64,000 bases of DNA from the NCBI GenBank assembly GCA_021205695.1, contig JAJPXB010000047.1, positions 62,001 to 126,000 on the forward strand, given 5' to 3'. The translations under genes were made by a program, and so were the position numbers. A model generated the notes under the pieces. That model saw nothing but the letters and a program-made list of their open reading frames with translations. It was not told the origin of the DNA and ran no database searches. Positions within the stretch are counted from its first letter, which is position 1; every line of letters starts with the position of its first letter. Source of the DNA: Clostridiales bacterium. Its GTDB lineage: Bacteria > Bacillota > Clostridia > Oscillospirales > Oscillospiraceae. Shown piece by piece: positions 16,556 to 27,400 of this stretch.

Positions 16556-16646
16556 TGTTTTGGTGAAATTGACAGCTCACTGCGGACGGCGCACAAAGGC
16601 GATCGTTCCGACTATTATTGCTGTAAATCCTAAACAGGAGGCAGTC

Positions 16647-18818
16647 ATGAAAACAGACGAATATATTGCTCATCGCGCCGAGGATGGCCGCACCCAGAGT
16701 GTAAAGGCCCATCTGGAGGGGACAGCCGCACTGGCAGAAAAGTTTGCCACCCCATTTGGTGCGGCGGCGTTGGGACGATGGGTGGGACTTGTCCACGATA
16801 TCGGCAAATACTCCGTGCCTTTCCAGCGGCGCATCAGTGACCCAGATCACGCACCACGCACTGACCACTCCACCGCAGGCGCCCAGGAGGCGTGGCAGCG
16901 ACGGCTGGCTCCAGCGGCCTTCGCTATTGCTGGACATCATACTGGTCTGCCGGACGGCGGTACCCGGCTGGATACAGCGGACGACCCCACCATGATAGGT
17001 CGATCTCGGAAGCAGGTGCCGGATTACAGCGCCTGGCGGCGGGACGTGACGCTTCCCCAGGTGTCCCTGCTGCCCTACCTGGGGCGGGACGGCTTCACTG
17101 ACAGCTTCTTCACCCGGATGCTCTATTCCTGCCTGGTGGATGCGGACTTTCTGGACACGGAGACCTTTATGCAGGGGCCACAGCCCCGCGGAGACTATGC
17201 CTCTCTGCCTGTGCTGCTGGACAGGCTCTCTGCCAAAACAGACCGCTGGTTAAACGGTGCGCCCGGCAACGCCCTGAACCGCTGCCGCAACGACATTCTC
17301 CGCGCCTGTATGGAGCACGGCGCACAATGGCCCCGGGGTCTTTACACCCTGACCGTCCCCACCGGTGGCGGCAAGACTACTGCATCCCTGGCCTTTGCCC
17401 TCCGCCACGCCGTAGCGCATGAGATGAAGCGGATTATCTACGTCATTCCGTATACCTCCATCATCGACCAGACGGTGGATGTGTTCCGGGACATTTTGGG
17501 GGAGGAGAACGTCCTGGCCCATTACGGCGAGGCCGCCTTCCGGCAAAAGGCCCCGGAGGATCTGACTCCGGAGGAATACCGCCAGCTGTTGGCCTCCGAG
17601 AACTGGGATGCGCCGCTGGTAGTCACCACCGCCGTCCAGTTCTTTGAATCCCTCTACGCAAACCGCAGCTCCCGCTGCCGGAAGCTCCACAACCTGGCGG
17701 ACAGCGTGATCATCTTCGACGAGGCGCAGACGCTCCCCCTGCCCTACCTCCGCCCCTGCTGCGCCGCCATCGCCCAGCTGGTGGAGCATTACGGCGCTAC
17801 CGCCGTGCTGTGTACCGCAACCCAGCCCGCTCTGGGGCCGCTGTTTGAGCAGCTGGCCCCGAACTTACAGCTGCGGGAGATTTGCCCCGGCGGGACGGCC
17901 CTCTATCAGACCCTACGGCGCTGCCACCTGGAGGATTTGGGCAGCCTCAGCCTGGAGGGGCTGGCCTCGCGTCTCCGGACACATCAACAGGTGCTCTGCG
18001 TCGTGAACCGCCGCAAAACGGCCCAGCAGCTCTATGCCGCCTTACCCAAGGACGGAGGCAGCTTTTGCCTGACCACTCTGCTGTGTGCCGCAGACCGCCG
18101 GGCCAAGCTGGCTGAGATTCGCCGTCGGCTCAGGGAGGGGCTGCCCTGCCGGGTGGTGTCCACCTCGCTGATCGAGGCGGGGGTGGACGTGGATTTTCCG
18201 GTCGCCTACCGGGAGGAGGCAGGGCTGGACTCTCTCTTGCAGACCGCAGGGCGGTGCAACCGGGAGGGGCGGGAAGCGAACCCCGCCCGATGCCCCGTGT
18301 ATCTGTTCAAGCTGGAGGACAGCCCGGCACCCAAAATGTTGGAGCTGCAAATCACCGCCCTGCGGGCGGCCCAACGGGAACAGGGCGAGCTGGATCTGCC
18401 GGAGGCTATCGCATATTACTTTAAAACCCTGTATGGAGTCAAAGGCCAGGAGGCCCTAGACCAGAAGCAGGTTATGGACGCATTTCTCAAGGGCAGGGGC
18501 GATGTGCAATGCCCCTTCGCTACAGTTGCCAAGGAATTTGCCCTGATTGAGAATCCGACCAAAACGATTTACCTTCCCATTGACAAGGGGGAAGAGCTCT
18601 GCCAGCTGCTCCAGGCCGGACAGACGAACCGGGCATTGTACCGGAAGCTGGGCCCTTACAGCGTGGAGGTCTATCAGGAGCAGTATCAAGCCCTTTATCA
18701 GGCGGGAGCGCTGGACCCTGTTGACGAGCGCTCCGCCGTGTTGACTTCCCCCATCTGGTATGACCGGGAGACGGGGCTGAAGTCTGATGCGCAGGGAGGG
18801 CAGGGACTGTTCCTGTAA
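16647..18818 (+). CDS. cas3: CRISPR-associated helicase/nuclease Cas3 (type I-C)
   Basis: HD motif VGLVHDIGKYSVPFQRRI, Walker A TVPTGGGKTTAS, IIFDEAQTLP, QTAGRCNREGR. Confidence 0.95.
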   Translation: MKTDEYIAHRAEDGRTQSVKAHLEGTAALAEKFATPFGAAALGRWVGLVHDIGKYSVPFQRRISDPDHAPRTDHSTAGAQEAWQRRLAPAAFAIAGHHTGLPDGGTRLDTADDPTMIGRSRKQVPDYSAWRRDVTLPQVSLLPYLGRDGFTDSFFTRMLYSCLVDADFLDTETFMQGPQPRGDYASLPVLLDRLSAKTDRWLNGAPGNALNRCRNDILRACMEHGAQWPRGLYTLTVPTGGGKTTASLAFALRHAVAHEMKRIIYVIPYTSIIDQTVDVFRDILGEENVLAHYGEAAFRQKAPEDLTPEEYRQLLASENWDAPLVVTTAVQFFESLYANRSSRCRKLHNLADSVIIFDEAQTLPLPYLRPCCAAIAQLVEHYGATAVLCTATQPALGPLFEQLAPNLQLREICPGGTALYQTLRRCHLEDLGSLSLEGLASRLRTHQQVLCVVNRRKTAQQLYAALPKDGGSFCLTTLLCAADRRAKLAEIRRRLREGLPCRVVSTSLIEAGVDVDFPVAYREEAGLDSLLQTAGRCNREGREANPARCPVYLFKLEDSPAPKMLELQITALRAAQREQGELDLPEAIAYYFKTLYGVKGQEALDQKQVMDAFLKGRGDVQCPFATVAKEFALIENPTKTIYLPIDKGEELCQLLQAGQTNRALYRKLGPYSVEVYQEQYQALYQAGALDPVDERSAVLTSPIWYDRETGLKSDAQGGQGLFL

Positions 18819-18824
18819 AGCAAA

Positions 18825-18856
18825 GGACACGGTAAAGAGAAACCTTCACCGTGCCC
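18825..18856 (-). terminator. hairpin, likely 3' end of the CreR-like RNA
   Basis: Minus strand GGGCACGGT...ACCGTGTCC stem (9 bp, one G-U) followed by TTTGCTTT. Confidence 0.5.
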
Positions 18857-18907
18857 CTATGTGGATACACCACTCAGCAAGTATTTCAATCCACAGCTTG
18901 TGCTGAC
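18857..18907 (-). ncRNA. CreR/CreA-like cas-regulating crRNA-like RNA (pseudo-repeat plus guide)
   Basis: Minus strand GTCAGCACAAGCTGTGGATTGAAAT (pseudo-repeat 18883-18907) followed by ACTTGCTGAGTGGTGTATCCACATAG; guide matches the cas promoter at 18965-18982 with a TTC PAM. Confidence 0.8.
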
Positions 18908-18913
18908 TTTTTT

Positions 18914-18942
18914 ATTATAAACGACCTTACAGCTATTGACAA
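18914..18942 (-). promoter_or_regulatory. promoter of the CreR-like RNA
   Basis: Minus strand TTGTCA-17-TATAAT; a +7 start is the G at 18907, the first base of the pseudo-repeat. Confidence 0.8.
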
Positions 18943-18964
18943 GCGGCAATTTTTGGCGTATACT
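18936..18964 (+). promoter_or_regulatory. promoter of the cas5-8c-7-4-1-2 operon
   Basis: TTGACA-17-TATACT. Confidence 0.85.
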
Positions 18965-18985
18965 ATACACAACTCATCAAGTGAA
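18965..18985 (-). promoter_or_regulatory. target site of the CreR-like guide with 5'-TTC PAM
   Basis: Minus strand TTC-ACTTGATGAGTTGTGTAT directly downstream of the -10 box of the cas operon promoter. Confidence 0.75.
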
Positions 18986-19035
18986 AGGAGGAAATATATG
19001 ATGCATCAATCGTACAGTGAAAGGAGTGAACGCGA

Positions 19036-19683
19036 TTGTCTATCAAAATCGAAGTATGGGGGCCTCATGCCTGCTTTTCTCGACCGGAGATGAAGACTGA
19101 AAGGGTGTCCTATGACATCATCACCCCCAGCGCAGCCAAGGGCCTGATCGAAAGCATTTTCTGGCACCCCGGCATGACCTGGGTCATTGACCGCATTTAT
19201 CTGCTCTCCCCCATCCAGTTCACCAACGTCCGCCGGAATGAGGTGAAGTCCGTCATCGTGGGGAGCAATGTCCTGTCCGTTATGAAGGGCGGCAAGGCGG
19301 ACCTGGCCCTCTATACATCCCAGGACATCCAGCAGCGGGCCGCCCTGATTTTGCAGGATGTCCACTATGTCATTGAGGCCCACTTTGACATGACGGAGAA
19401 GGCCGCCCCTGGGGACAATCCCGGAAAATTCCAGGAGATGACCCGTCGGCGGCTGGCCAAGGGGCAGAACTACAGTATGCCCTACCTGGGCTGTCGGGAG
19501 TTTCCCGCCAACTGCCGGGAGTGGCCCGGCGGGGAGATCCCCACCCAGCCGCTCACCCAGGACCTGGGCTATATGCTCCACTCCATGGATTATTCCGACC
19601 CTCAGGACATCCGCCCCCGGTTCTTCCGGGCAAAGCTGGTGAACGGGGTGCTGGACTTGCAGGATTGTGAGGTGGTCTCATGA
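19036..19683 (+). CDS. cas5c: type I-C CRISPR-associated protein Cas5
   Basis: SIKIEVWGPHACFSRPEMKTERVSYDIITPSAAKGLIESIFWHPGMTWVIDRI; TTG start with GAAAGGAG upstream. Confidence 0.94.
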   Translation: MSIKIEVWGPHACFSRPEMKTERVSYDIITPSAAKGLIESIFWHPGMTWVIDRIYLLSPIQFTNVRRNEVKSVIVGSNVLSVMKGGKADLALYTSQDIQQRAALILQDVHYVIEAHFDMTEKAAPGDNPGKFQEMTRRRLAKGQNYSMPYLGCREFPANCREWPGGEIPTQPLTQDLGYMLHSMDYSDPQDIRPRFFRAKLVNGVLDLQDCEVVS

Positions 19684-21431
19684 TTCTGCAGGCGCTGACC
19701 GAATATTATGACGCCCTGCTGGACCGGGGGGAAATCTCCCCGCCCGGCTGGGACGATGCCGCCAAGGTCAGCTTTGGCCTGGAGCTGGCAAAGGATGGGA
19801 CGCTGGTGCAGGTGATTCCCTATCAGCGAACGGTGCAGCAGGGAAAAAAGGAAAAGCTGCTGACCAATCGGCTGATGCGCGTCCCCGCCCATGTAAAGCG
19901 AACGGTAGGGATCGCCGCGAATTTTCTGTGTGATACCAGTTCTTATCTCCTGGGGGCGGATGCCAAAGGAAAGCCGAAACGCTCCATAGAATGTTTTCTG
20001 GACTGTAAAGAGCTGCATCAGCGTCTGCTGACGGGTGTAGACACCCCGGCGGCCCGGGCGATCCTGGCCTTTTTTGACTGCTGGCAGCCGGAACAGGCCG
20101 CCGCCCATCCACTGCTGTCGCCCATCTGGAAGGACCTCACCGGCGGAGCCAACCTGATTTTCTGCTTTGGTATGGAGCCGGTGACTGCGGACGCCGCCAT
20201 CTGCCGGGCATGGCAGCAGCATTATAGCGCCGGGGCGGAGGATGCCGAAACCGGCCAGTGCCTGGTTACCGGCGAAGTCAGCCCCATTGCCAAACTCCAT
20301 CCGTCCATCAAAGGGGTGCGGGGGGCCAGCACGATGGGGGCCTCGCTGGTCTCCTTCAACGCTCCGGCCTTTGAATCCTACGGCCACACCCAGGGCGGCA
20401 ACGCCCCCGTGGGGGAATACGCCGCCTTTGCCTACACCACCGCCCTGAACGCCCTGCTGGCGGACAACGAACACTGCCAGGTCATCGGTGATACCACCGT
20501 GGTCTGCTGGGCACAGCACGGGGAACCGGCCTATCAGTCTGTAGGCATGATGGGGCTGTTTGGCGCGGCTCCGGGCATTGATGACCGTGACCTGTCCGCC
20601 GCGCTGCACAAGCTGGCACAGGGAGAACCCATTTCCTGGGACAATGTGACCCTTTCTCCGGAGGAGCATTTCTACTTCCTGGGCCTTGCCCCCAATGCGG
20701 CCCGGCTGTCGGTGCGGTTCTTCCTCCGGGACAGCTTCGGCAGCTTCATGGAGCATCTGGAGCAGCACTACCGCGACATTGCCATCATTCGCCCCGCCTA
20801 TGACACCCGGGAAAATATTCCGCTGTGGCAGCTGCTCAACGAGACGGTGAACCAGAACAGCCGAACCAAGTCCGCCTCCCCCCAGTTGACCGGCGATGTG
20901 CTCCGGGCGATTCTCAGCGGCGCGCCCTATCCCGCCACCCTCCTCAACGGCGCGGAGCTGCGCATTCGGGCGGAGCGGGAGGTCGCCCGGGGCCGTGCGG
21001 CTATCATCAAGGCGTATTACCTGCGCTTTTCCCACCCAGACTGTCCAAAGGAGATTTTACAGATGGAACTGAACGAAACCAGCACCAACGTGGCCTATAC
21101 CCTGGGTCGGATGTTCTCCGTCTATGAGCAGATCCAGCAGGCGGCCAACCCCAACATCAACGCTACCATCAAAGATAAGTGTTTCAACGCCGCCTCCGCT
21201 ACCCCCGCCACGGTGTTCCCCCTGCTGGGCAATCTGGCGGCCAAGCACCAGCGGGTGCTGGCCCGGGACAGCAAGGGTGCGGCGGTCAATCTGGAGCGGA
21301 AGCTGCAATCCCTCTCCACCATTATCGGGGACGCATATCCCACCCGGCTGAACCTGCAGCAGCAGGGTTCCTTCCAGCTGGGCTACTACTTCGAGAATCA
21401 GGCCCGTTATCAGAAAAAGGAGGAAAAGTAA
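19680..21431 (+). CDS. cas8c: type I-C CRISPR-associated protein Cas8c/Csd1
   Basis: MILQALTEYYDALLDRGEISPPGWDDAAKVSFGLEL; position between cas5 and cas7. Confidence 0.95.
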   Translation: MILQALTEYYDALLDRGEISPPGWDDAAKVSFGLELAKDGTLVQVIPYQRTVQQGKKEKLLTNRLMRVPAHVKRTVGIAANFLCDTSSYLLGADAKGKPKRSIECFLDCKELHQRLLTGVDTPAARAILAFFDCWQPEQAAAHPLLSPIWKDLTGGANLIFCFGMEPVTADAAICRAWQQHYSAGAEDAETGQCLVTGEVSPIAKLHPSIKGVRGASTMGASLVSFNAPAFESYGHTQGGNAPVGEYAAFAYTTALNALLADNEHCQVIGDTTVVCWAQHGEPAYQSVGMMGLFGAAPGIDDRDLSAALHKLAQGEPISWDNVTLSPEEHFYFLGLAPNAARLSVRFFLRDSFGSFMEHLEQHYRDIAIIRPAYDTRENIPLWQLLNETVNQNSRTKSASPQLTGDVLRAILSGAPYPATLLNGAELRIRAEREVARGRAAIIKAYYLRFSHPDCPKEILQMELNETSTNVAYTLGRMFSVYEQIQQAANPNINATIKDKCFNAASATPATVFPLLGNLAAKHQRVLARDSKGAAVNLERKLQSLSTIIGDAYPTRLNLQQQGSFQLGYYFENQARYQKKEEK

Positions 21432-21432
21432 A

Positions 21433-22332
21433 ATGTCTGAATCCATCAAAAACCGCTATGAATTTGTCATCCTGTTCGACGTGGAGAACGGCAACCCCAA
21501 CGGCGACCCCGACGCTGGCAATATGCCCCGGGTAGACCCGGAGACCGGCTACGGCCTGGTCACCGACGTGTGCCTGAAGCGGAAGATTCGCAACTACGTG
21601 GAGACTGCCAAAGAGGACGTCCCTGGCTACCGCATCTACATTAAGGACAGCGTCCCTTTGAACCGTAGCGACGCTGAGGCTCTTGACAAGCTGGGCTACA
21701 AAGGCGTGGATGAAAAGGGACTAAAGGACGCCAAGAAGAAGGACCCCACCTTGGATATGAAAGTCCGTGACTTCATGTGTCAGAATTTCTACGATATTCG
21801 GACTTTCGGCGCAGTGATGACCACCTTCGTCAAGGGTAATCTGAACTGCGGACAGGTTCGCGGGCCGGTACAGTTAAGCTTTGCCCGTTCCGTGGACCCC
21901 ATCGTGCCCCAGGAGGTCACCATCACCCGTGTGGCCATCACCACCGAGGCCGACGCCGAGCGGAAGGGTACCGAGATGGGACGGAAATACATCGTCCCCT
22001 ACGCCCTCTACCGGGCGGAGGGTTATATCTCCGCAAACCTGGCTCGCAAGACCACCGGCTTCTCTGAGGAGGACCTGTCCCTGCTGTGGGAAGCTATCCT
22101 GAATATGTTTGAGACCGACCACTCCGCAGCACGGGGCAAAATGGCCGTCCGCAAGTTGATTATCTTCAAGCACGATACCGAGCTGGGCTGCGCCCCCGCC
22201 TACAAGCTGTTTGACACTGTCCAGGTCTGCCGCAAAAACCCCGATGCTCCCGCCCGGGCCTATGGAGATTACACTGTTGTGGTGGACGCTGCTGCCCTGC
22301 CTGCCGGAGTGACCTGCACGGAGTTGGCCTGA
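21433..22332 (+). CDS. cas7: type I-C CRISPR-associated protein Cas7/Csd2
   Basis: NRYEFVILFDVENGNPNGDPDAGNMPRVDPETGYGLVTDVCLKRKIRNYV. Confidence 0.96.
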   Translation: MSESIKNRYEFVILFDVENGNPNGDPDAGNMPRVDPETGYGLVTDVCLKRKIRNYVETAKEDVPGYRIYIKDSVPLNRSDAEALDKLGYKGVDEKGLKDAKKKDPTLDMKVRDFMCQNFYDIRTFGAVMTTFVKGNLNCGQVRGPVQLSFARSVDPIVPQEVTITRVAITTEADAERKGTEMGRKYIVPYALYRAEGYISANLARKTTGFSEEDLSLLWEAILNMFETDHSAARGKMAVRKLIIFKHDTELGCAPAYKLFDTVQVCRKNPDAPARAYGDYTVVVDAAALPAGVTCTELA

Positions 22333-22336
22333 TCTC

Positions 22337-22990
22337 ATGCGGGAGGAGGATTATCTGCCCCTCTCCGGCATCCAGCACTTCGTTTTCTGCCGCCGCCAGT
22401 GGGCACTCATCCACCTGGAGCAGCAGTGGGCGGAGAACCTCCGCACCACGGAAGGGGAGCTGCTCCACAAGAACGCCCACGACGCCGAGCAGCGCATCCT
22501 CCGGGGCGATCTGTTGACAGTGCGCGCCATGCGGGTTCATTCCGCCCGGCTGGGTCTCTCCGGGGAATGTGACGTGGTGGAGTTCCGGTGTTCGGAGGAA
22601 GGAGTACCGCTGGCGGATACCAAAGGGCTATGGCTTCCCTACCCCGTGGAGTACAAGCGGGGCCGGGCCAAGCCCACCGCCTGCGATGAGGCCCAGCTCT
22701 GTGCCCAGGCCATGTGCCTGGAGGAGATGCTGTGCTGCACCGTTTCGGAAGGTGCGCTGTTCTACGGGCAGCCCCGTCGGCGTCAAGAGGTGGCCTTCAC
22801 ACCGGAGCTGCGTGCCTTGGTGGAGAACGCCGCAGAGGAGATGCACCAGCTGTTTCAGCGGGGGTACACGCCCAGGAGCAAGCCCACCAAGGGATGCAAC
22901 GCCTGCTCACTGAAAGATCTGTGCCTGCCCGGCCTGACCAAAGGCCCCAGCGTGTCGGACTACCTGAGAGGGGGGCTGAATGAGCCGTGA
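22337..22990 (+). CDS. cas4: CRISPR-associated protein Cas4
   Basis: LSGIQHFVFCRRQWALIHLEQQW; C-terminal cysteine cluster CNACSLKDLCLP. Confidence 0.95.
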   Translation: MREEDYLPLSGIQHFVFCRRQWALIHLEQQWAENLRTTEGELLHKNAHDAEQRILRGDLLTVRAMRVHSARLGLSGECDVVEFRCSEEGVPLADTKGLWLPYPVEYKRGRAKPTACDEAQLCAQAMCLEEMLCCTVSEGALFYGQPRRRQEVAFTPELRALVENAAEEMHQLFQRGYTPRSKPTKGCNACSLKDLCLPGLTKGPSVSDYLRGGLNEP

Positions 22991-24018
22991 GACATCTGCT
23001 GAACACGCTGTTCGTCACAATTGAGGACGCCTACGCCAGCCTTGACGGGGAAAATGTGGTGATTCACCAGGGGGATGTGACTCTGGGCAGGTTCCCACTG
23101 CACATTTTGGAGGGCATTTTCCTGTTTACCTACCCAGGTGCCTCTCCTGCTCTGATGGGTAAATGTGCCAAAGAAAACGTAAACCTGGTTTTTCTGACCC
23201 CCAAGGGACGGTTTCTGGCCCGTACCTGCGGCATGAGCCAGGGCAACGTGCTGCTTCGCCGCACCCAGTACCGGGCGGCGGATGACCCGCTGCAAAGCTG
23301 CCGCATCGCCCGGAATATGATCTTCGGCAAGCTGAGCAATGCTCGGCAGGTGCTGGATCGCGCTCGCCGGGATCACAGTCCCAGACTTGACGCAAAGCGA
23401 TTCCAGGCCGTTTCCGATCAGATCCGGGGGCTGCTGCCCCAGGTACTGGAGGAAAGCTCCCTGGACTCCCTGCGGGGCTTAGAGGGGGCGGGGGCCAACG
23501 GGTATTTTGGCCTGTTCGACGACATGATTTTGCGTAGCAAGGACGTATTTTTCTTTCACGGACGGAGCCGCCGCCCGCCCCTGGATCGGGTCAACGCTCT
23601 GCTGTCATTTGTCTATACTATGTTGGGCAACGAGTGCGCCTCCGCGTTGGAAACGGTGGGCCTGGACGCCTATGTAGGGTTCCTCCACCGGGATCGCCCC
23701 GGTCGAACCTCTCTGGCGCAGGATCTGCTGGAGGAGCTACGGCCCTGCATGGCGGATCGCTTCGTGCTGACCCTCATCAATAATCAGGAGATCTCCGAGA
23801 AGGACTTTGAAGAGCAGGAAAACGGCGCCGTTTTTCTGACAGGTGAGGGCCGCAAGAAGGTTCAGCGGGCCTGGCAGGAGCGGAAGCAGGTGGTCATCGT
23901 TCACCCGTTCCTGAAGGAAAAGCTGCCCTGGGGCCTGGTGCCCTATGTGCAGGCGCTGTTACTGGCCCGGTATCTCCGCGGCGATTTGGACGGTTATCCG
24001 CCGTTTCTATGGAAGTGA
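22987..24018 (+). CDS. cas1: CRISPR-associated endonuclease Cas1 (type I-C)
   Basis: RHLLNTLFVTIEDAYASLDGENVVIHQGDVTLGRFPLHILEGIFLFTYPGASPALM; GTG start overlapping the cas4 stop. Confidence 0.95.
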   Translation: MRHLLNTLFVTIEDAYASLDGENVVIHQGDVTLGRFPLHILEGIFLFTYPGASPALMGKCAKENVNLVFLTPKGRFLARTCGMSQGNVLLRRTQYRAADDPLQSCRIARNMIFGKLSNARQVLDRARRDHSPRLDAKRFQAVSDQIRGLLPQVLEESSLDSLRGLEGAGANGYFGLFDDMILRSKDVFFFHGRSRRPPLDRVNALLSFVYTMLGNECASALETVGLDAYVGFLHRDRPGRTSLAQDLLEELRPCMADRFVLTLINNQEISEKDFEEQENGAVFLTGEGRKKVQRAWQERKQVVIVHPFLKEKLPWGLVPYVQALLLARYLRGDLDGYPPFLWK

Positions 24019-24025
24019 GGCCGTT

Positions 24026-24316
24026 ATGCTTGTCGTAATCGCCTATGACGTAAACACCGAAGATTCTGCTGGGCAGCGTCGTCTGCGCAAAGTGGCAAAG
24101 CAGTGCGTTAACTACGGCCAGCGGGTGCAAAACTCCGTGTTTGAGTGCTCGCTGGACGCTGCTCAGTATCGCTTGCTCAAGGCAAAGCTCTGTGATATCA
24201 TAGACACAGAGCGAGACAGCCTTCGGTTTTATAATCTTGGAAACAACTACCACAAACGGGTCGAGCATTTCGGAGCCAAGGGCGGTTATGACGCCGCCGG
24301 CCCGCTAATCCTCTGA
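24026..24316 (+). CDS. cas2: CRISPR-associated endonuclease Cas2
   Basis: MLVVIAYDVNTEDSAGQRRLRKVAKQCVNYGQRVQNSVFEC. Confidence 0.95.
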   Translation: MLVVIAYDVNTEDSAGQRRLRKVAKQCVNYGQRVQNSVFECSLDAAQYRLLKAKLCDIIDTERDSLRFYNLGNNYHKRVEHFGAKGGYDAAGPLIL

Positions 24317-24494: not shown

Positions 24495-27400
24495 GTCGCT
24501 CCCCGTGAGGGGAGCGTGGATTGAAATTCTTGTGGATAGATATCCTAAAGTACGGGTAATTAGGTCGCTCCCCGTGAGGGGAGCGTGGATTGAAATATGC
24601 GGGTTGCTTTTGGTGGTCGTTTATGGTTTGGTCGCTCCCCGTGAGGGGAGCGTGGATTGAAATCTGATTTCTCAGGTCGTGGAATACGGCCAGAGCGGTG
24701 TCGCTCCCCGTGAGGGGAGCGTGGATTGAAATTCCAGCTTCTACTTTATATAGTGGTTCTATTAGGTCGCTCCCCGTGAGGGGAGCGTGGATTGAAATAT
24801 GTTCTTTGGAATAGTCTGGAGTCGAAAAATATGTCGCTCCCCGTGAGGGGAGCGTGGATTGAAATTGTTTATTTTGGCTCTTCTGACACTACTTCTACGT
24901 CGCTCCCCGTGAGGGGAGCGTGGATTGAAATTCCAAGGTGGCTCTGATCTGCAACCTGTCCGACGTCGCTCCCCGTGAGGGGAGCGTGGATTGAAATAGA
25001 ACCTTGTTATCAAGGTAGAAACCCCTGAAAGTCGCTCCCCGTGAGGGGAGCGTGGATTGAAATAGAACGCTAAGACCGGATGAAATCAGCGTCAGAGTCG
25101 CTCCCCGTGAGGGGAGCGTGGATTGAAATATGGGGCGGCGGCAGAAAAGCCCCGGCACAGGCTCCGGTCGCTCCCCGTGAGGGGAGCGTGGATTGAAATC
25201 GGAATGAAGCTGGTGGCGGCTCTCTGGGGGTATCGTCGCTCCCCGTGAGGGGAGCGTGGATTGAAATACGGCATGGAGCCTTGATGAACGGATGATGTCC
25301 CCCAGTCGCTCCCCGTGAGGGGAGCGTGGATTGAAATAAGCTCCGTTTTGTTCACATTTCCATCTTGCCATGTCGCTCCCCGTGAGGGGAGCGTGGATTG
25401 AAATATGCCGATTAAAGAGACAGATTCGGTAAAAGGCCGTCGCTCCCCGTGAGGGGAGCGTGGATTGAAATAAAACCGGACACGCTATGTCCGGTCAAGT
25501 AGACCGGTCGCTCCCCGTGAGGGGAGCGTGGATTGAAATATTGGAGGTACAAACAAATGAAAAAGTCAACTGGTCGCTCCCCGTGAGGGGAGCGTGGATT
25601 GAAATCAGAACGCATATAAAGCACCGATGAAAAAGGAGGCGTCGCTCCCCGTGAGGGGAGCGTGGATTGAAATAATGAAAATCCAAAGGGACGCAATGTC
25701 GGGGACGTCGCTCCCCGTGAGGGGAGCGTGGATTGAAATAGGACGCTAAGACCGGATGAAATCAGCGTCAGAGTCGCTCCCCGTGAGGGGAGCGTGGATT
25801 GAAATAAAAGCAGAACGGACGGACGGCGCAACAGCCGGGGTCGCTCCCCGTGAGGGGAGCGTGGATTGAAATAGGGACGATTGACCAAAGACCCGGAGCT
25901 GAGACGTCGCTCCCCGTGAGGGGAGCGTGGATTGAAATAAAGTCACCCCCTCATAATATGAATATGAGTAATGTCGCTCCCCGTGAGGGGAGCGTGGATT
26001 GAAATCGTCTCGGTATAGATGATGTCGATGATTACCTTGGTCGCTCCCCGTGAGGGGAGCGTGGATTGAAATAACCCGTGTGGCCCGGAATTGCTGGGCC
26101 ACCTCCTGTCGCTCCCCGTGAGGGGAGCGTGGATTGAAATTATCCGGGTGATTGATAGCGGCTATTAGCATAATCGTCGCTCCCCGTGAGGGGAGCGTGG
26201 ATTGAAATTCCTTTGCGATAGTCCAGGTAAAGCAGAGCTTTGGTCGCTCCCCGTGAGGGGAGCGTGGATTGAAATATAGTCCATGCTCCCATAGATTTCA
26301 ACCGCCTCGTCGCTCCCCGTGAGGGGAGCGTGGATTGAAATTCTCCGTCTTTTCTTTTGCGATAGTCCAGGTAAAGCGTCGCTCCCCGTGAGGGGAGCGT
26401 GGATTGAAATTCCGGGCGCTGGAGCGGGACAAGCGCAGCGGCCAGGTCGCTCCCCGTGAGGGGAGCGTGGATTGAAATAATTTCAGGGCGGACTGCATCT
26501 CCCGCACCTGGGCGTCGCTCCCCGTGAGGGGAGCGTGGATTGAAATAGCGGGACGCCGGATGTTGTGTTGACTCCTCGGCGTCGCTCCCCGTGAGGGGAG
26601 CGTGGATTGAAATCGGAATCGTGCTTAAATGTTGCCAAAATGCAGAAGTCGCTCCCCGTGAGGGGAGCGTGGATTGAAATTCGGCCCGGAGGAGGCCCTG
26701 GAATGGGGCTTCGCGTCGCTCCCCGTGAGGGGAGCGTGGATTGAAATCCCCTGTCCGCCCAACGCTCCACCACGGCCCGGGTCGCTCCCCGTGAGGGGAG
26801 CGTGGATTGAAATAGCGTGCTGGCGCTCATTGCCCGATTTTGGTCAAGTCGCTCCCCGTGAGGGGAGCGTGGATTGAAATTGCGAGGCGGAGCGACGCGG
26901 GAACAAGTACACCGTCGCTCCCCGTGAGGGGAGCGTGGATTGAAATGTCCGTGGGGGCCTTGTTAAAGCGCTCCAGCGCGTCGCTCCCCGTGAGGGGAGC
27001 GTGGATTGAAATTGCGAGGCGGAGCGACGCGGGAACAAGTACACCGTCGCTCCCCGTGAGGGGAGCGTGGATTGAAATTGGATCAGCTGGGAATCCGCCC
27101 CGCTGACGCCACGTCGCTCCCCGTGAGGGGAGCGTGGATTGAAATCCTGGCGGACGATTCCAACGCCACCATATATGCGTCGCTCCCCGTGAGGGGAGCG
27201 TGGATTGAAATCTGGGATGAGCCCCAGAATGAGTACGACCAGAAGGCGTCGCTCCCCGTGAGGGGAGCGTGGATTGAAATTTATATGATGTGTACAATTC
27301 GCAAGGCATTAACGTCGCTCCCCGTGAGGGGAGCGTGGATTGAAATCTCTACCCCGCCCCTGGCGGCGCATGAACCGCCCGTCGCTCCCCGTGAGGGGAG

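Follow-up and report, generated by a model that had tools for sequence, protein, structure and literature searches.

Two promoters lie back to back upstream of cas5 in a CRISPR-Cas locus and have a -35 core in common; one faces cas5 and the other faces a repeat-like element on the minus strand. What would the second promoter transcribe, and does the overlap add a layer of regulation? We analyzed the locus in a 64-kb stretch of DNA (the window) and compared it with the cas5 upstream regions of relatives.

A repeat-like module upstream of cas5c

The system is type I-C. It encodes Cas5c, Cas8c, Cas7, Cas3, Cas4, Cas1c and Cas2, and a long array follows. Between cas3 and cas5, on the minus strand, we observed a module consisting of a pseudo-repeat, a guide and a terminator hairpin, in that order. 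Its anatomy resembles that of the CreRs, which autorepress cas genes in types I-B, I-E and V-A (PMC13131331, PMC12737573), and we refer to its predicted product as a CreR-like RNA. The features are listed with their coordinates in the window.

16560..18818, plus strand: cas3, HD nuclease and helicase (TIGR01587, E 1.5e-33; TIGR01596, E 3.1e-24); longest open reading frame, true start uncertain
18823..18858, minus strand: terminator-like hairpin (16 pairs) and U-rich tail, predicted 3' end of the CreR-like RNA, in place of a second repeat (fold z -4.0)
18859..18882, minus strand: guide, ~24 nt; the first 17 nt match the cas promoter except at positions 6 and 12
18883..18907, minus strand: pseudo-repeat GTCAGCACAAGCTGTGGATTGAAAT, a shortened I-C repeat with a 4-bp hairpin and an intact 11-nt handle; predicted RNA start 18907
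18914..18919, minus strand: -10 box TATAAT of the putative CreR-like RNA promoter (promoter scan and relatives)
18936..18941, plus strand: -35 box TTGACA of the cas promoter; its sole private base is 18936
18937..18942, minus strand: -35 box TTGTCA of the putative CreR-like RNA promoter; its sole private base is 18942
18959..18964, plus strand: -10 box TATACT of the cas promoter, with transcription expected to begin around 18971
18966..18982, minus strand: protospacer of guide positions 1-17 (18982-18966), mismatched at 6 and 12
18983..18985, minus strand: PAM TTC
19036..19683, plus strand: cas5c, first cas gene behind the cas promoter, likely the pre-crRNA nuclease (TIGR01876, E 5.2e-43)
19680..21431, plus strand: cas8c (TIGR01863, E 1.9e-130)
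21433..22332, plus strand: cas7 (TIGR02589, E 4.1e-103)
22337..24316, plus strand: cas4, cas1 and cas2 (profile search)

The pseudo-repeat is a repeat-like element outside the array and derives from the cognate CRISPR repeat: the final 12 bases of the array repeat (GTGGATTGAAAT) are present in it unchanged, the hairpin is shortened and the total length is 25 nt. Two further observations were made at the locus. In the leader region (19000-19093), the motif AGTGAAAGGAG occurs twice, and a short ORF that has a good ribosome site, AAAGGAGG, overlaps the TTG start codon of cas5; one close relative, L095, has a deletion of the leader. Two array spacers (25064-25096 and 25740-25772), ten repeats apart, are nearly identical, and their repeat-spacer units are 99% alike over 100 bases.

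To place the module among relatives, we used 156 distinct cas5 upstream regions. A minus-strand pseudo-repeat with a guide matching its own upstream region at 13 or more of 15 scored positions was present in 52/156. One weak locus, L029 with a CTC PAM, was left out, which gave 51 loci with a TT-type PAM; the module thus occurs upstream of cas5 in ~50 type I-C loci of Clostridia. Among the 94 loci whose cas5 is at least 50% identical, 44 carried the module and 50 had none detectable, so the module is dispensable. A distant second I-C lineage of the same genus (L017-L021; Cas5c, identified by profile, ~29% identical) has the same design of pseudo-repeat, guide and terminator, with its own co-varying guide and target.

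Guide, target and predicted RNA

We observed that the guide matches the cas promoter at all 15 scored positions, with mismatches at the unscored positions 6 and 12, and that full guide matches in the 2.2-Mb genome are confined to the cas promoter. Across loci, the best scores of guides against their own locus were 13-15; guides placed on the regions of other loci, or shuffled, had a mode of 10. In 38 well-separated guides, match rates were 0.34 at position 6, 0.21 at position 12 and 0.16-0.32 beyond position 17, compared to 0.68-1.00 elsewhere. Free positions at 6, at 12 and beyond 17 are the pattern expected if the guide acts through a type I R-loop. The PAM of these guides, which was not scored, was TTC in 29 and TTT in 7, against a TTC background of 2%.

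Guides and targets also changed together. In the eight close relatives (L001-L006, L031 and L095; cas5 at least 91% identical), pairwise comparison gave 160 guide changes with a matching change in the target versus 19 without one, counts whose cells are not independent events. Variation occurs at 12 of the 15 positions that pair, and in nearly all of these the base in the guide tracks that in the target; no co-tracking was seen in these relatives at guide positions 6, 12 and 18-26. Because guides and targets change together, we read the module as a candidate CreR-like RNA-guided cas autorepressor, and these data are strong evidence, at the level of sequence, that Cascade uses the RNA on the cas promoter.

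We next considered where the RNA would start. Downstream of the minus-strand TATAAT come six A residues (18913-18908) and then G18907 of GTCAGC. In the 42 loci where both promoters were callable, with a 28-nt range allowed in the search, 25 had 6 nt and another 7 had 7 nt between the -10 box and the GTC of the repeat. A scripted spacing of 1 in L031 came from a chance GTC in the discriminator; its corrected value of 6 brings the total to 33/42 at 6-7 nt. Among close relatives the discriminator varies in sequence and hardly in length. This conserved spacing makes the first nucleotide of the pseudo-repeat (18907) the most likely start of the CreR-like RNA, as the earlier note had proposed in placing the start at +7 after the -10 box.

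The same note held that such an RNA would need no 5' trimming, which now looks doubtful. The 4-bp hairpin of the pseudo-repeat is kept and precedes TGGATTGAAAT, the 11-nt handle, and Cas5c is expected to cut after the stem. In type I-C Cascade, Cas5c processes the crRNA and holds the handle (PMC7684278). With hairpin and handle both kept, 5' processing by Cas5c is likely, whatever the start site.

The 3' end is predicted to be set by the terminator. Its hairpin shows compensatory changes across the eight relatives, and a terminator hairpin stands after the guide in all 51 loci, where no second handle-like sequence was found. The consensus fold retains both the repeat hairpin and the terminator. 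The single-sequence fold counts against the autorepressor reading: in it the handle pairs with the guide tail and the repeat hairpin does not form. That pairing is absent from the consensus fold.

In the eight close relatives, the guide (18859-18875 here) forms a hairpin of its own, in which positions 8-13 pair with ~19-24 with compensatory changes, so that the bases concerned must serve two partners, the target and the guide tail. In these relatives G always occupies guide position 12, which never matches the target. A guide-internal hairpin is not a general feature (guides, mean z -0.50; ordinary array spacers, -0.51). A search for an Rfam identity returned a single chance snoRNA match (E 0.33).

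The -35 core and its distribution among relatives

Both promoters are of the sigma-70 type, have 17-bp spacers and match the consensus at 11/12 positions, and all their coordinates in the earlier note proved exact. Their -35 boxes interlock within TTGACAA (offset -1), and their -10 boxes are separate, 40 bp apart. We observed 7 promoter-like sites in 17500-20500, compared to 0.8 expected from shuffles. Dinucleotide shuffling of 18819-19035 (20,000 rounds) never produced an overlapping back-to-back pair that scored 11/12 or better on each strand; 7 shuffles had one at 10/12 or better and 244 at 9/12 or better. This pair is the only overlapping one in the whole window, even at the 9/12 threshold. 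The overlap claimed for TTGACAA is thus real and better than chance.

Part of this symmetry comes cheaply. TTGACA followed by A reads TTGTCA on the opposite strand, which is 5/6 of a -35 box. A shared -35 therefore requires a single additional base, and what counts as independent evidence is that a consensus TATAAT sits at a distance of exactly 17 bp on the minus strand. In the six relatives that share the -35, both -10 boxes, TTGACAA and the pseudo-repeat are near-constant while the intervening sequence drifts, and this conservation upholds the presence of two promoters. Provided that both are active, binding must be exclusive, since one -35 cannot hold two polymerases at once. The earlier expectation that polymerase occupancy competes therefore stands as geometry; a regulatory role of exclusion is plausible and would be lineage-specific.

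The interlocked arrangement was found in six of the eight close relatives (L001, which is this window, L003, L005, L006, L031 and L095). In the other two, L002 (cas5 98% identical) and L004 (93%), the module is present and the -35 is not shared; the promoters are 36 and 27 bp further apart, the target keeps the position relative to the cas -10 box that it has in the sharers, and the CreR promoter scores 9/12. Exact sharing was seen in 0 of the 34 more distant loci with both promoters callable, where guide and target are kept. CreR promoters score 11/12 in the sharing lineage, compared to a median of 9/12 in other loci. In trees of cas3 and of cas5, whose inner branches have weak support, L002 and L004 fall in separate places, which suggests that the sharing state changes easily. 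On this distribution, sharing of the -35 is a local and labile refinement at the level of a lineage, associated with a stronger CreR promoter. In every one of these loci the module and cas are divergently oriented. Of the 36 non-sharing loci, 13 have -35 boxes 6-40 bp apart, where polymerase footprints could still clash.

These comparisons bear on the earlier idea that the overlap is a second regulatory layer beyond the guide. The guide layer acting on the cas promoter is borne out by the sequences, but the overlap is no general part of the system: it is missing from L002, L004 and all 34 distant callable loci, in which guide and target persist. We consider it an even call whether the overlap is a by-product of compactness, with the near-symmetric TTGACAA letting the CreR promoter reuse the cas -35 and with no regulatory consequence except a stronger promoter. 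The one-base price of sharing and the retention of the module without sharing in two close relatives and 34 distant loci fit this account; against it, two promoters this close to consensus must be mutually exclusive where they use a common -35, at least under high polymerase occupancy. We hold more tentatively that exclusion is a true second layer that sets the ratio of CreR-like RNA to cas mRNA. Cascade over the cas -10 box would then divert polymerase to the CreR promoter or, sitting directly against the upstream side of that promoter, would hold it back as well. The exact -1 offset in six relatives despite flanking drift, the 11/12 CreR promoters of the sharing lineage and a protospacer that ends ~6-23 bp from the CreR -35 (depending on Cascade coverage) favor it, whereas the intact guide and target of the ungrouped L002 and L004, and a 5/6 opposite-strand -35 that TTGACAA yields for free, speak against it.

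Two other accounts fare worse. If the pseudo-repeat were the decayed remains of a former array and its guide matched by chance, the shortening of the repeat to 25 nt and the partial mismatch of the guide would fit; the matched co-changes, the pattern at positions 6 and 12, the PAM, the start spacing and the terminator in ~50 loci contradict this, and we regard it as scarcely credible. It is also improbable, to a slightly lesser degree, that the module encodes a CreA-type antitoxin that keeps an intergenic toxin gene in check. The anatomy is alike, a pseudo-repeat and a spacer-like guide matching a promoter (PMC9458426), but the targeted promoter faces cas5, and the target in L095 lies only ~18 bases from cas5, which leaves no room for another gene. 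We saw no toxin gene in the intergenic region, although tiny RNA toxins are hard to exclude. A CreR-like autorepressor of cas remains our preferred reading.

Proposed mechanism and known systems

We consider it very probable that a type I-C CreR-like RNA guides Cascade onto its own cas promoter and represses cas, with promoters that share a -35 in this lineage. The minus-strand promoter would produce a short RNA from the first base of the degenerate repeat, and a Cas5c cut after the small hairpin would leave a normal 11-nt handle. Cascade (Cas5-Cas8c-Cas7) would assemble on the processed RNA and bind the cas promoter through limited complementarity of 17 nt beside the TTC PAM, over the -10/start region. 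Bound Cascade would block cas transcription and would not form the full R-loop for Cas3 cleavage. Ordinary crRNAs or anti-CRISPRs that draw Cascade away would raise cas transcription. In this lineage, polymerase at one promoter would also exclude the other via the common -35, a step that may be incidental, since the shared -35 is missing in two close and all distant relatives.

Because the target here covers the cas -10/start region, a direct block of polymerase binding is the simplest mechanism. By target class, 13 loci have this arrangement, 18 have targets just upstream of the -35 on either strand and 10 have targets downstream. Guides of L045, L047, L056, L068, L092, L108 and others target the stretch between the divergent promoters, on either strand; Cascade bound there might shut off transcription of cas and of the CreR-like RNA alike.

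If the reading holds, CreR-like autorepression extends to type I-C, which is among the commonest subtypes, in a one-repeat form across many Clostridia. Co-evolution lets the pairing rules be read from natural sequences: positions 6 and 12 free, ~17 nt used and a TTC or TTT PAM. The shared -35 would provide a natural circuit of minimal size, where single-base changes could separate RNA-guided repression from promoter exclusion. A one-site switch, in which every binding of polymerase leads to transcription of either the effector operon or the RNA that represses it, with the balance shifted by Cascade over the cas -10 box, seems to us rather doubtful; if true, it would pack RNA-guided repression and promoter exclusion into a single ~80 bp element. 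The primary CreR paper is reportedly Liu et al. 2023 in Cell Host Microbe, and a 2023 NAR survey is said to deal with crRNA-like elements; type I-C CreR cases may possibly have been noticed earlier, for example in the primary paper or in surveys.

The module shares with CreR a crRNA-like RNA built on a degenerate repeat, a guide with limited complementarity to a PAM-flanked site in the cas promoter (a co-evolving match over 17 nt, interrupted at 6 and 12, with a TTC PAM) and predicted Cascade-dependent autorepression. It differs in belonging to type I-C, in having a promoter of its own that stands back to back with the one it targets (with the -35 in common in one lineage) and in having one pseudo-repeat and a terminator hairpin; the two pseudo-repeats of a mini-CRISPR were found in none of the 51 loci. 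Because the testable sequence features are present except the second repeat, we class the module as CreR-like, a type I-C variant with one repeat, and not as a canonical mini-CRISPR. creA genes with one or two repeats have been described (PMC9458426). CreA of CreTA likewise has a pseudo-repeat and a spacer-like guide with a partial promoter match beside a TTC PAM (PMC9458426, PMC8501985), but the target here is the promoter of cas5-cas8c-cas7, and no toxin was found that it could repress.

As in Cas9 autorepression, the effector would silence its own promoter through a non-defence guide and anti-CRISPRs would relieve it; the difference is a class 1 Cascade with a crRNA-like guide. The guide of Cas9 autorepression is tracr-L. 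Cas9 autorepression is among the topics mentioned in PMC13131331. Bidirectional bacterial promoters with a symmetric -10 (Warman et al. 2021, as cited in passages of PMC11661796 and PMC10800924) also use a near-symmetric element for both strands; here the -35 is in common, the -10 boxes are separate and no single -10 element serves both. With an engineered type I-C Cascade, targeting a TTC-PAM protospacer over the -10 box repressed a Neisseria gene, and a single repeat-spacer unit was enough (PMC10865793), which makes the one-repeat anatomy plausible. The module has the same kind of site and a single repeat-spacer unit; unlike that engineered system, it is natural and aimed at its own cas promoter.
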